A stretch of 64,000 nucleotides of DNA, from NCBI RefSeq assembly GCF_013044135.1, contig NZ_JABEPP010000007.1, forward strand, positions 1 to 64,000. Direction: 5' to 3'. The translations under genes and the position numbers were made by a program. This document shows, piece by piece, positions 6,641-12,488 of the stretch (positions are counted from its first letter, which is position 1; each line of letters starts with the position of its first letter). The DNA comes from Enterovirga aerilata (lineage in GTDB: Bacteria; Pseudomonadota; Alphaproteobacteria; Rhizobiales; Beijerinckiaceae). Below the pieces are notes generated by a model. That model was not told the DNA's origin. It ran no database searches and saw only the letters and a program-made list of their open reading frames with translations.

Positions 6641-8910
<2,270 letters not shown>

Positions 8911-8936
8911 CGAGCGGCAATAGTCGCGAAGGTCAT

Positions 8937-9075
8937 GGCCGGGCTTGTCCCGGCCACCTCGGCCCGCTGCTCAGCGCCCCGCCTCTCTCCCCTTGCGGGA
9001 AGAGCCTGCCCTCGGGCCCTACCCGAGGGGCCGCGTCGCCTGCGGCAGCAGGCGACCGGGTGAGGGGGCTGTTCC
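8937..9075. repeat. intergenic hairpin-rich repeat after thiC
   Basis: Three hairpins follow each other. GGCCGGG (8937-8943) pairs with CCCGGCC (8949-8955). CCCTCGGG (9009-9016) pairs with CCCGAGGG (9022-9029). GTCGCCTGC (9035-9043) pairs with GCAGGCGAC (9048-9056). Segments such as CTCTCCCCTTGCGGG and GGGTGAGGGGGCT resemble dispersed intergenic repeats of Rhizobiales. The first hairpin could end thiC transcription but has no T-run. No gene was seen from 8911 to 9143. Confidence 0.6.
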
Positions 9076-9143: not shown

Positions 9144-9323
9144 CTAGTCTAAGTGACTATCGGTCTCACGGCTGAATTGCCGGCGCGCGAAGGCCCGATA
9201 TGCCCTCGAAGTCCGGAGCAATAGGTTTGCCACAAACTCTGCGCTGATGTTCGAACCATCAATCCGAAAGTTTAGGACAGCGTCGCAGGGGCCGCCCTCT
9301 TGCGGGGCGGGAGGTTGTGGCAC
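9144..9323 (-). CDS. possible small protein downstream of the HEPN gene
   Basis: A 59-aa frame from GTG at 9323 to TAG at 9144, in the same AT-richer insert and on the same strand as the HEPN gene, 42 bp after its stop. The middle looks protein-like rather than random: DAVLNFRIDGSNISAEFVAN, then a basic Arg-rich tail (about 37-52). An AAGAGG lies close upstream of the GTG. I do not recognise a family. It could be a third member of the DUF5343-HEPN unit, the remnant of a longer gene, or chance. Confidence 0.33.
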   Translation of the reverse strand: MPQPPAPQEGGPCDAVLNFRIDGSNISAEFVANLLLRTSRAYRAFARRQFSRETDSHLD

Positions 9324-9365
9324 TTACCTCTTCTTCGAGGTTGTTCTGGAGCTTAGAGGCTGAAA

Positions 9366-9959
9366 TCACGACATAATCGTAAACCAGCTCCGTACCGCAA
9401 GATTGAGACGCTCCTGCTCTAGCTCTCCTGTCGGATTGCAATGGGCAATCGGCCCGCGAAGCAGATTGAGCTGATTCGAAACGTTGCTGACCGCGCTCTT
9501 AGATTGAAACACCGGATCAAAGAGGTCCCAGTTATCGGTGATCAGCTGCGACAGCTCGCCAAATGTGGTGTAGTCGATCAATCGGTCAGAACGTGTGGTG
9601 ATCCCGCTATCTACCTCCCTTTTTCTCCGTTGCGTGGCAGGCTTTCGGATTCGGTCCTCGTCGACCCTCTTGCTTTCCCACCAGTCTGCGCCCTCCGCGT
9701 CGATCAGAATGTCAGCAACGAGTTTGCGGATAGAATTTTCTAAGCAGTAGAAGACTTCGTAGAATTCTGACATCCGAGCCGCTTCAGATCGAAGCGCCGC
9801 TTCGAACTGATCGTAATCCGACGACTTTCTTCCTCGCCGATTATCTACCTGAAAAGCTAGATCGATGCTGAACGTTCGCTCAATGTGCGACATGCTAGAC
9901 GCGATCTGAAGGCCTGACATTCCGAAGGCTCGGACAAAACCGTCTGGTCGCTTAGGCAT
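9366..9959 (-). CDS. Swt1-type HEPN domain protein (putative RNase)
   Basis: A protein of 197 aa. The C-terminal half (about 70-195) matches the Swt1-like HEPN domain: a helical stretch FYEVFYCLENSIRKLVADIL, then WWESKRVDEDRI, then a region around YTTFGELSQLITDNWDLF. The Rx4H active-site motif is R168-GPIA-H173. HEPN proteins with an intact Rx4-6H motif are usually metal-independent RNases in toxin-antitoxin, abortive infection or RNA-processing systems. Residues 1-65 are not recognised. The ATG overlaps the DUF5343 stop by 8 bp, so the two are probably co-translated. Base composition is clearly AT-richer than the flanks. Confidence 0.8.
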   Translation of the reverse strand: MPKRPDGFVRAFGMSGLQIASSMSHIERTFSIDLAFQVDNRRGRKSSDYDQFEAALRSEAARMSEFYEVFYCLENSIRKLVADILIDAEGADWWESKRVDEDRIRKPATQRRKREVDSGITTRSDRLIDYTTFGELSQLITDNWDLFDPVFQSKSAVSNVSNQLNLLRGPIAHCNPTGELEQERLNLAVRSWFTIMS

Positions 9960-10590
9960 CGTCTTCTCGCAGAAGGTGAGTCTTCAAACTCTTGAAGATC
10001 GCGTCGAAGACAGCGGCGTCCGACGTTGCGGGCAGATTCAGGTTGATCGTGTAGCCGAGTCTGAACTCGAAGTTCCTGTCAGAATGCGCAGCCCTCTGCC
10101 GTTGGTTTCCTTGAGGAGCATCGTCCTCCGGAAGGATCACCGTGGGAGCTCGCGCCTCTGTAGGCATGTTGAAATCCGCGAAATTCTTCAGGTGCTTGAT
10201 GCAGCTCACCGTCAGCTTCACGGGATTGGAGTCATGCGCTTCTCCGGTTTCCTCAACCACGAGCCCAAGAAGTTCGGAGTCGTTCAGCTCATGCATGTAC
10301 TCGTTTCGTACGTACAGCGGTGCATACGCTCGGCGTATCGCGGCTGCAACTGCTGATCCGGAAGATGCCGGATTTCGGAATTTGCGGTAGGCCTCAGAGG
10401 GTGTTCCGTCGCTGTTGGCAAAGCCGAGCTTTTTGAGGAACGCTGTCATTTGATCCCCGGAGCCGCCCGGGATTTTCAGGATAGTTTTCACGAAGTCCTG
10501 GCTGACGCGCTCGGGAACAGCTGCGGCCTTGATGCCAAGAAGCGCCTTCTGGATGTTCCCGGGTGAGGTCACATACGGCAAAGATGTCAA
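9952..10590 (-). CDS. DUF5343 family protein
   Basis: A protein of 212 aa from a TTG start at 10590. That TTG has GGAG eight bases upstream, while the longer GTG start at 10623 has no ribosome site. The family signature begins at once (LPYVTSPGNIQKALLGIKAA), followed by SQDFVKTIL, FLKKLGFANSDGTPSEAYRK and NEYMHELNDSELLGLVVEE. The C-terminal 70 residues are more variable. Function is unknown. It is the upstream partner of the HEPN protein, overlapping by 8 bp, in an AT-richer insert. A role as regulator, antitoxin or sensor for the HEPN effector is inference. A weak TTGACG at 10638-10643 (minus strand) may be part of its promoter. Confidence 0.8.
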   Translation of the reverse strand: MTSLPYVTSPGNIQKALLGIKAAAVPERVSQDFVKTILKIPGGSGDQMTAFLKKLGFANSDGTPSEAYRKFRNPASSGSAVAAAIRRAYAPLYVRNEYMHELNDSELLGLVVEETGEAHDSNPVKLTVSCIKHLKNFADFNMPTEARAPTVILPEDDAPQGNQRQRAAHSDRNFEFRLGYTINLNLPATSDAAVFDAIFKSLKTHLLREDDA

Positions 10591-10699
10591 TTGGTTTGCT
10601 CCACGGCGGGAGCAAACGATCACGTTAGTGTCGATCGCGTCAATGGCTGAACGAGCAAGTCAGTCGTCACAAAGCCCGGAGTCCATAGGTCTCGCGGGC

Positions 10700-10917
10700 C
10701 ACCTAGGTGTCTGGAAAAGCCGCTCCCGTGACCGCGCCCGCGCCTTCTCGGCCTCGACGGCCCGGTCCCGCGGCGGGGCGCTCGTGTGAAGCGAGGCGAG
10801 GAGGTGGCGGGCGGCGTGGGTGATCTTGTCGACGACCCCGTCGAAGGCCTCCGCATTGGCCTTCGACGGGTGCGTCGTGCCGGAGAGCCTTGCGCCGAAT
10901 TGCAGCGCCGCGGCTCT
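10700..10917 (-). pseudogene. DUF2277 family gene, 5' part missing
   Basis: Reading the minus strand from 10917 gives RAAALQFGARLSGTTHPSK, then an alpha-helical stretch, then TSAPPRDRAVEAEKARARS. This is the C-terminal two thirds of the short DUF2277 proteins (about 90 aa). Those normally begin near MCRNIKTLFNF and have PPATDDEIRAAALQF just before this point. The expected N-terminus is absent: the frame runs instead into the repeat that begins at about 10919. The 3' end is also extended and degraded. The gene appears to have been broken at the repeat boundary. Confidence 0.65.
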
Positions 10918-10918
10918 C

Positions 10919-11040
10919 TCCACTGTCATTCCCGGCCGGAGGCGGCGGAGCCGCCGGAGGGGAAGGGAATCCCGAGGCGGCTGCGGACTGTGAGGTTGGC
11001 TGGATCCCCTTCCGCCTGCTGCGCAGACGCCGGGTTTGAC
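10919..11040. repeat. dispersed repeat A, copy 1
   Basis: The block opens with TCCACTGTCATTCCCGGCCG, has the inner hairpin GGCGGCGGAGCCGCC, then GGAGGGGAAGGGAATCC. It closes with CTGGATCCCCTTCC, which is inverse to the GGAAGGGGAT-type opening arm. The same opening and closing segments recur at 11809-11936. It abuts the truncated DUF2277 gene on one side and lies 23 bp from the vapBC control region on the other. Confidence 0.65.
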
Positions 11041-11123: not shown

Positions 11124-11363
11124 ATGCCCCGTACGCGTGTGTTCAAGTCCGGCAACAGCCAGGCGGTCCGCATACCGGCGGAGCTGGCCTATGAGGATGC
11201 TGCGGCGGAGCTGACGATCAGCCGGCATGGCGACGTCATCACGCTCTATCCGGCGCGCACCGGCCTCAAGGACGCAGTGGCGCGGCTGCGCGGTATGCCT
11301 AAGCCGCCCGATGTCGAGCGGCGCGAGCCGATCGAGATGCCCGAGCGCGAACAAGTGGGTTGA
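11124..11363 (+). CDS. vapB: VapB-type antitoxin (AbrB/MazE fold)
   Basis: A protein of 79 aa. The N-terminal swapped-hairpin DNA-binding domain is clear: RVFKSGNSQAVRIPAELAY, then ISRHGDVITLYP. The C-terminal third, rich in charged residues and proline, is the usual toxin-binding tail. GAGAGGAG lies 6 bp upstream of the ATG. It pairs with the PIN toxin gene downstream; the two are separated by a palindromic repeat that begins inside the vapB stop codon. Confidence 0.92.
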   Translation: MPRTRVFKSGNSQAVRIPAELAYEDAAAELTISRHGDVITLYPARTGLKDAVARLRGMPKPPDVERREPIEMPEREQVG

Positions 11364-11408
11364 GCATGATCTCACCGGAAAACCGGTTCCCACTTTTCCG
11401 GATCATGC
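11362..11408. repeat. 47-bp palindromic repeat between vapB and vapC
   Basis: The element runs GAGCATGATC ... CCGGAAAACCGGTTCCCAC ... TCCGGATCATGC. Both ends carry GCATGATC/GATCATGC, and the centre CCGGAAAACCGGTT is near-symmetric. It matches a small repeat I know to be abundant in Bradyrhizobium and related Rhizobiales. The vapB TGA (11361-11363) overlaps its left end, and the vapC ATG is 1 bp past its right end. A diverged copy lies at 55896-55942. Confidence 0.75.
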
Positions 11409-11409
11409 G

Positions 11410-11805
11410 ATGGCCTTTCTCATCGACACCAACATCGCGATCCATGCGCGGGACGGGACCGAGCGCGTGCTCGACGCCTTGGCCGAGCATGACGGTCAGG
11501 TGCTGCTCTCTGCGCTGAGCCTCGCCGAACTGCAGCGCGGGCTCCACCGCGATCCGGCCGTAACCGCGCTCCGGAGGGAGCGGCTTGCGATCCTGCTCGA
11601 GGCGATCCCCGTAATCCCGTTCGATGCCGCCGCGGCCGAGGCTTATGGGACGATCATCGCTCAATGCGGCTGGGTGCGCGGCCGCGACTACGATCGCATG
11701 ATCGCAGCGCACGCGATCGCCACAAGCTCGACCCTCGTCACGAACAACGAGGCGGATTTCCGCGACATTCACGGGCTGACGCTTGTGAACTGGACGAGCG
11801 GCTGA
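11410..11805 (+). CDS. vapC: VapC-type PIN-domain toxin (RNase)
   Basis: A protein of 131 aa, standard for VapC. PIN acidic residues are present: D6 in FLIDTN, E40 in SLAELQRG, D95 in RDYDRMIAAHA and D116 in NNEADFRDI. Type II VapC toxins are Mg-dependent RNases that inhibit translation. The ATG at 11410 gives the normal N-terminus MAFLIDTN; the ribosome site would fall inside the palindromic repeat just upstream, which may affect expression relative to vapB. Confidence 0.93.
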   Translation: MAFLIDTNIAIHARDGTERVLDALAEHDGQVLLSALSLAELQRGLHRDPAVTALRRERLAILLEAIPVIPFDAAAAEAYGTIIAQCGWVRGRDYDRMIAAHAIATSSTLVTNNEADFRDIHGLTLVNWTSG

Positions 11806-11808
11806 GCG

Positions 11809-11979
11809 CTCCACTGTCATTCCCGGCCGGAGCAGTGCGGCAGCACTGCGGAGGGGAAGGGAATCCAGGGACGTCGTCCGCGGTGGGAGGTGTGCTGGAT
11901 CCCCTTCCCGGCCCTGCGGGCCGCCGGGGATGACAAGGAGCCCTTCCCGGGCGCTGCGCGCCCGCCGGGGATGATAGGC
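11809..11979. repeat. dispersed repeat A, copy 2, with partial duplication
   Basis: It starts CTCCACTGTCATTCCCGGCC four bases after the vapC stop. An inner hairpin GCAGTGCGGCAGCACTGC and GGAGGGGAAGGGAATCC follow, and it closes with CTGGATCCCCTTCCCGG. A second closing-type block, CCCTTCCCGGGCGCTGCGCG at 11941, repeats the end (compare 11906). It is the sister of the copy at 10919-11040, so vapBC lies between two copies in the same orientation. Confidence 0.65.
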
Positions 11980-12488
11980 GGCTTGACAATCATAGGAATA
12001 TAGTCTAGATCGGCTTCGTCCTCTTCGCCGAGGGGCGCTCTCGCGAGGCGTCAACAGAGCGGAAGAGCTTGAATGGGCCGGAATGGGCGAGAGCCCAGGC
12101 CGGCTGACGCGGCGCCTGCGGGCGGGTTTCGCGAACCCGCACTCGGGGAGCCGGACCAGCGCCGCCCTCCGGGTAATACGGCCCGGGCGCCAGTGCAGCA
12201 TGGCTAGTGTTCTCTCGTCCGGCAACGGGCGAGGGGGCGGAAGAGCGGCAGGTCCGGTCCAAAATCGCCGCCCGTGCCGGGGAAACCCGGACGCGGTGCT
12301 TGTCGTCTGGATCCTCGGGTCAAGCCCGAGGATGACAGGCGGGCGGGCATCGCGGGGACGCCGCAAGGCTCCTCTATAAAAAATTGATCGAGCGTTTCGG
12401 CGTCCCACGCCCCTCGACCAATTCACCCGCTCTTTGAAGTCGCCCGTCCTGACCGACCCCGCGCCGGGGAAGGACGGCGCGTGGGCGC
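11980..12488. other. intergenic stretch without a recognisable gene
   Basis: Neither strand gives a convincing protein. Two hairpins stand out. GCGGGTT (12122-12128) pairs with AACCCGC (12134-12140). ATCCTCGGG (12311-12319) pairs with CCCGAGGAT (12325-12333), within a common Rhizobiales-type repeat (CTGGATCCTCGGGTCAAGCC). Together with the repeats to the left, this looks like decayed accessory DNA. Confidence 0.6.

Follow-up and report, generated by a model that had tools for sequence, protein, structure and literature searches.

Two overlapping genes on the minus strand of Enterovirga aerilata encode a DUF5343 protein and a HEPN protein. With a probability that we put at about one half, they constitute a compact immune module of the sensor-effector type that moves horizontally (the PADLOC candidate PDC-M34). 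The DUF5343 protein would be the sensor, comprising a double helix-turn-helix (HTH) DNA-binding domain, then a flexible linker and, last, a conserved tail for docking on the HEPN protein; the latter would be the effector, an R-x4-H ribonuclease. On meeting foreign or phage-altered DNA the DUF5343 protein would release or activate its partner, and the activated HEPN protein would cut host and/or phage RNA, so that the infected cell is stopped. The copy studied here is intact and adds a new member to a candidate system that is already listed but apparently lacks a published study. Our analysis adds a conservation test, a case against a third gene and an RNA partner, a lead on the DNA-binding fold, and the combination of several HEPN families with DUF5343.

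Gene organization and limits of the module

The window (i.e. the whole 64,000-nucleotide stretch of DNA that was analysed) carries the DUF5343 gene at 9952-10590 on the minus strand. It has a TTG start and encodes 212 amino acids, matching PF17278 (E 2.2e-36) and PDC-M34A (PDLC04589, E 9.2e-39, positions 6-207 of the 208 in the profile). The Swt1-type HEPN gene (9366-9959, minus strand, 197 amino acids) matches PF18731, HEPN_Swt1, at 35.0 bits, above the Pfam cut-off of 27.5, and PDC-M34B (PDLC04592, E 2.1e-35, positions 7-188 of 192). The genes overlap by 8 bp (9952-9959, minus strand), suggesting translational coupling. The active-site stretch of the HEPN protein (9441-9458, minus strand) reads R168-G-P-I-A-H173.

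The gene pair, its overlap and the R168-x4-H173 motif are thus as described in an earlier note on this DNA, made from the sequence alone. That note also described the block as AT-richer than both sides, and the G+C content is indeed 54.4% in 9366-10590, compared with 66.7% and 67.5% in the 2-kb flanks. It placed the site among repeats and beside a vapBC pair, and this too holds; a MazE-like antitoxin gene and a PIN toxin gene lie at 11124-11805, between imperfect repeat copies at 10907-11013 and 11798-11908. No evidence was found that this vapBC-type pair belongs with the DUF5343-HEPN module. The suggestion that the system is undescribed has to be given up, because PADLOC-DB (2023) already holds both genes as the candidate PDC-M34. 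Both proteins are matched and the genes are adjacent on one strand, which places the pair within a candidate defence system already on record. NCBIfam and PHROGs gave only insignificant matches for either protein. A search of the open-licence PMC literature (excluding bioRxiv) found no paper naming DUF5343 or PDC-M34, and the accessible portions of PMC12548924 and PMC12839542 contain nothing on the pair. PMC12988326, in its accessible portion, cites the Payne 2024 preprint for the PDC candidates.

The limits of the module were defined by comparing the window pair with 12 close relatives (L040-L051) whose HEPN proteins are 71-77% identical to that of the window. DNA similarity extends at most from window position 10589 to 9364, ending at the HEPN stop codon; the sole further DNA match, in L041, involves a short repeat around 8932-8962. 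The similarity sets in at 10503-10589, and in nine of the 12 at 10578-10589. Since it begins at or just after the TTG at 10590, this is likely to be the start codon of DUF5343. At the other end the earlier note had seen a small third frame of 59 amino acids (GTG start, 9144-9323). Its position, starting 42 bp past the HEPN stop, is correct, but its status as a gene is not supported. With DNA similarity ending at the HEPN stop it falls outside the conserved module. It has no family match in Pfam, PADLOC, NCBIfam or PHROGs and no plasmid match, and a tblastn search against 152 loci matched solely three loci from the same genome. We therefore reject it as a third gene.

Directly upstream of the TTG at 10590 there is a 9-bp inverted repeat with a 6-nt loop (GTTTGCTCC / GGAGCAAAC, 10594-10617). 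Its right arm includes GGAG, the likely ribosome-binding site of DUF5343, which the inverted repeat would mask. It was rejected as a conserved operator, as in the relatives such repeats do not rise above the frequency seen in shuffled sequence. Within 100 bases upstream of DUF5343, arms of at least 8 occur in one of 73 relatives (1.2% of shuffles), and arms of at least 7 in 9.6% of the 73 (5.9% of shuffles).

Conservation of the pairing and spread of the module

Genome contigs were scanned with a HEPN alignment, and the best 80 of 161 relatives were taken. DUF5343 lies directly upstream on the same strand in 76 of these 80 loci, so that the pairing is conserved in other genomes beyond chance. 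In the 76 paired loci DUF5343 is a separate open frame in 71 (one of which, L084, has a DUF5343 fragment at a contig end), is fused to the Swt1-type HEPN in a single chain in one (L080), and is split over several frames in four (L049, L082, L105 and L112). Among the unpaired loci L087 and L103 are cut by the contig end, L099 has a HEPN truncated behind what we read from the translation as a transposase-like frame, and L118 retains just the tail of DUF5343. The 8-bp overlap of the window is the commonest arrangement, found in 34 of 71 relatives; this count used the HEPN start codon nearest to the DUF5343 stop, and favours short gaps. Eight loci from IMG/VR include seven with the pair; the remaining one starts at a contig end.

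All 81 aligned HEPN sequences (the window and the best 80 of 161 relatives) carry R168 and H173. The R-x4-H motif was not among the scan patterns. The distance matrices of DUF5343 and HEPN proteins correlate with r = 0.78 (at most 0.11 in 2000 permutations) for 71 sequences that are non-independent through kinship, as expected if both genes travel together. Comparison of the window with five relatives shows codon differences in both genes of 0.58-0.67 at third positions and 0.12-0.23 at second positions, indicating purifying selection on both DUF5343 and HEPN.

The pairing was also analysed from the side of DUF5343. PF17278 proved rare in the three overlapping genome samples searched, which covered the family (10 of 199 genomes), the phylum (11 of 398) and the class (10 of 385). 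In the genus none of the eight other genomes in the family sample, several of them incomplete, has DUF5343. Altogether 25 distinct genomes matched, 23 of them above the Pfam cut-off (G198 and G466 fall below), and partners were judged within about 1.5 kb on each side. A HEPN-class partner is adjacent or fused in 19 of the 25 (18 of the 23 above the cut-off). New in this analysis are the gene fusions at two loci (L080 and L142) and the division of the partners into three groups; 13 partners are Swt1-type, three are Ymh and three are weakly DUF4145-like. Both DUF4145 and Ymh are classed as HEPN families in the accessible part of PMC3710099.

The Hypoth_Ymh partners match with E 3.5e-26 (G198), 1.8e-27 (G706) and 2.9e-30 (G624), and in G624 DUF5343 and Ymh make up one 325-aa protein. 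In PADLOC the Ymh partner of G198 matches PD-Lambda-3_B (E 6.5e-9) and Aga_HEPN (E 1.4e-8). The DUF5343-Ymh fusion at L142:943-1917, a single 325-aa protein, has RNPRAH in its Ymh-type HEPN. The DUF4145-like partners (G522, G230 and G393) have 170-171 amino acids and score 18.1-21.0 bits, below the cut-off of 23.1; the two examined are without R-x4-6-H. We note a separate two-gene variant at L026:962-2115 and L030:780-2019, in which DUF5343 stands with a 170-171 aa DUF4145-like partner lacking R-x4-6-H; this partner has no PADLOC model at E 0.01. No HEPN was found within about 1.5 kb on each side in six of the 25 genomes. Three of these (G095, G154 and G193) belong to one genus, G016 is a fragment, G466 is probably a false match, and the sixth is G860. 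Stand-alone DUF5343 genes with a different tail, and with no HEPN neighbour in the stretch examined, were seen at L006, L007 and L008, all from one genus.

The 12 copies with 71-77% identity to the window HEPN come from varied Alphaproteobacteria, from Bradyrhizobium to Caulobacter, and from a Rickettsiales MAG. In each of the 46 loci of more than 20 kb with both genes the pair exceeds the DNA beyond 5 kb in A+T content, on average by 14 points, so AT-richness is a trait of the module and not a peculiarity of this genome. The best reading is that the DUF5343-HEPN pair moves horizontally between distant taxa as a self-contained module. A tblastn search with the window DUF5343 matched no phage or plasmid record. 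For the window HEPN, four plasmids gave partial matches covering 53-68% of the query, and the one inspected is a longer HEPN protein with no adjoining DUF5343. DUF5343 proteins of the other partner groups gave no plasmid matches, and E. coli has no DNA-level match to the Citrobacter copy.

In the window the pair adjoins thiC (6703-8910). The same is seen at L064:7378-9045 (Sphingomonas Leaf9) and L068:11322-12998 (Erythrobacter NAP1), in differing orientations, and insertions may favour the end of thiC as a hotspot. Beyond thiC the congener G041 has about 1 kb of different sequence, after which comes a 166-bp match to window 12029-12191, a 163-bp block that is single-copy in the window. The 4.2 kb examined in G041 have no match to DUF5343, HEPN, vapBC or the next gene of the window (PBP); lacking PBP, the right-hand side is not demonstrably the same place, and the locus cannot count as a clean empty site. 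The 1.2 kb after thiC in G145 lack any match to the pair, and other same-genus loci end too early. A tRNA-Ser gene at L050:9269-9341 (Maricaulis MAG), which precedes the DUF5343 start by about 30 bp, is a further possible insertion site.

Predicted structures of the two proteins

The AlphaFold model of the DUF5343 protein has a mean pLDDT of 78.9. Residues 1-141 (10168-10590, minus strand) form a domain with a predicted double-HTH-like fold and a pLDDT of 85-95 over residues 1-140. This is followed by a linker at about residues 146-176 (10063-10155, minus strand) of low confidence and poor conservation, with pLDDT below 50 at 146-178 and a mean column conservation of 0.25 over residues 141-178 (71 sequences). 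The C-terminal tail, residues 177-208 (9967-10062, minus strand), contains a helix at 192-206 in the model. In the same 71 sequences the mean column conservation of residues 179-208 is 0.81, the highest of five stretches compared, whereas that of the domain is 0.55-0.64. The tail may therefore be a docking element for HEPN. Its profile reaches significance in the Swt1-partnered group and, beyond that, in L144 alone. It is retained in the L080 fusion, and is missing by eye from the L142 fusion and from the HEPN-less DUF5343 proteins of L006-L008 and L141. A tail common to all DUF5343 proteins was considered and rejected; L010, L026 and L030 show a resemblance by eye, but score like shuffled sequence.

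Comparison of the DUF5343 model with known structures by VIA-align ranked 3bhw first (Z 5.5, rmsd 4.1, 136 aligned), followed by SspB (6juf; Z 5.4, rmsd 4.6, 140 aligned), FokI (2fok; Z 5.2, rmsd 3.5, 128 aligned) and BrxA (7zge; Z 4.9, rmsd 4.0, 133 aligned), with many winged-helix regulators ranking under BrxA at Z 2-4. According to the accessible part of PMC9240713, 3BHW is homologous to BrxA, DALI gives SspB as the next match of BrxA, the HTH motifs of FokI match BrxA with a poor overall rmsd of 9.1, and BrxA binds dsDNA. VIA-align Z values below 8 (here about 5) may reflect a mere common arrangement, and a DNA-binding fold of DUF5343 is therefore only a lead. Foldseek found nothing significant for the model (best E 0.88), and a sequence search of solved structures gave no convincing match. 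The model thus points weakly to a double-HTH fold of DNA-binding type, and DUF5343 is possibly a DNA-binding sensor. The earlier note had proposed DUF5343 as the control or sensor partner of HEPN. The partnership is conserved (76 of the best 80 of 161 HEPN loci, and 19 of 25 DUF5343 genomes), while for the role of sensor the predicted fold is compatible but weak.

The HEPN model has a mean pLDDT of 80.4. Its best structural match is the PbAbiF dimer bound to ncRNA (8vz6; Z 7.6, rmsd 4.3, 140 aligned); HEPN-MNT (Z 5.5) and Csm6 (Z 5.2) follow, intermixed with unrelated helical bundles. Foldseek found nothing significant (best E 1.5). The accessible text of PMC3710099 describes R-x4-6-H as partly conserved across the Swt1-like HEPN family, and that of PMC12165695 describes the HEPN domains of Cas13an as structurally similar to Swt1 and AbiD/F. 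The HEPN protein is probably an RNA-cutting enzyme, the proposed R-x4-H RNase effector.

Function and relationship to known systems

The arrangement of two small overlapping genes led by the putative controller, the HTH-like predicted fold of DUF5343 and the presence of HEPN-MNT (8xeh) among the structural matches of HEPN could also fit a type II-like toxin-antitoxin system. HEPN would be the toxic RNase, and DUF5343 an antitoxin that binds HEPN by its tail and represses the operon by its HTH. HEPN toxins with protein antitoxins exist, HEPN-MNT being such a case. We nevertheless consider this reading unlikely, though a serious competitor. The isolate genomes L049 and L118 have a broken DUF5343 next to an open HEPN frame, which argues that DUF5343 is an activator rather than an inhibitor; the same is found in the MAGs L082, L105 and L112, where sequencing error is possible. 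The partners can be joined in a single chain (L080 and L142), no operator-like inverted repeat is conserved in the 100 bases upstream (73 relatives compared with shuffles), and the nearest folds of the DUF5343 model, at weak Z, are those of defence DNA-recognition proteins. All of these favour sensor and effector over toxin and antitoxin. The preference is just moderate, because the broken loci were drawn from a HEPN-based scan that is biased towards intact HEPNs and would miss the reverse case; in the DUF5343-based sample the copies of G073 and G800 have a HEPN frame that is split or cut by the contig end.

The match of the HEPN model to PbAbiF with its ncRNA raises another alternative, in which HEPN is restrained by a non-coding RNA and DUF5343 is an accessory. 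There is a precedent in C. difficile AbiF, which is neutralised by RNA (PMC12373285, accessible part). We regard such a system here as very improbable. An Rfam search of the locus gave no family near threshold and one far sub-threshold match within the vapBC region, and no DNA outside the two genes is conserved in the 12 close relatives, so that no AbiF-like RNA was found beside HEPN by these two approaches, which a short or fast-diverging RNA could escape. Lastly, the pair might serve regulation or stress, or be an accessory function of a mobile element, and not act in defence at all. The Pfam families adjoining the pair (the first 25 of 134 listed) are mostly metabolic or housekeeping, with a few TIR, helicase or restriction-type domains. 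Defence genes show no clear excess next to the pair over positions 8-10 kb away, with 69 PADLOC families compared with 46 in 148 proteins each (families being counted, not proteins); the 148 were taken in list order from 174 near and 177 far proteins, so the last loci are omitted, proteins of more than 900 aa were dropped, and genes were called by a greedy longest-ORF rule. Moreover the window DUF5343 is unmatched in phage and plasmid records. Against this stand the patchy distribution (10 of 199 family genomes and none of the eight others in the genus), the copies in distant taxa and in eight IMG/VR contigs, the fully conserved HEPN motif and the PADLOC candidate status, and we judge a role outside defence to be improbable.

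We therefore prefer the sensor-effector immune module. If this is true, it would provide a function for DUF5343 and for the PADLOC candidate, and show how a single DNA-binding module, recombined with different HEPN RNases, yields a minimal sensor-effector system. More broadly, and tentatively, DUF5343 could be a general DNA sensor of bacterial immunity, whose double-HTH domain, as a rule accompanied by a docking tail, would control exchangeable HEPN RNases from three or more families (Swt1, Ymh and DUF4145-like) and so link the recognition of foreign DNA to the destruction of RNA. The pair is small, self-contained and present in many bacterial groups, and should thus be transferable to laboratory strains for direct testing.

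The pair in the window conforms to PDC-M34, both proteins matching its models and the genes being adjacent, with no difference found. To BrxA (of BREX), SspB (of Ssp) and the recognition domain of FokI there is a possible resemblance, at weak Z, in the double-HTH-like fold predicted for DUF5343 residues 1-141. The pair differs from these in that the DUF5343 protein matches solely DUF5343 in Pfam (up to E 10 no family other than PF17278, the BrxA/DUF1819 profile being unmatched) and has a HEPN partner. The HEPN-MNT toxin-antitoxin systems are likewise two-gene HEPN modules, but the partner in the window is DUF5343, and no nucleotidyltransferase family was matched in Pfam. AbiF/Abi2 falls in the same Abi2/Swt1 HEPN group in the 2013 classification (PMC3710099, accessible part), and PbAbiF is the best structural match of the window HEPN; by contrast the window pair has a protein partner with no ncRNA found, and matches only HEPN_Swt1 in Pfam. 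The same source describes AbiJ-NTD1, a mostly helical domain of about 140 amino acids that is fused to the AbiJ, DUF4145 and Ymh HEPN families. Kinship to DUF5343 is not implied, but the logic is the same, i.e. one domain combined with several HEPN families.
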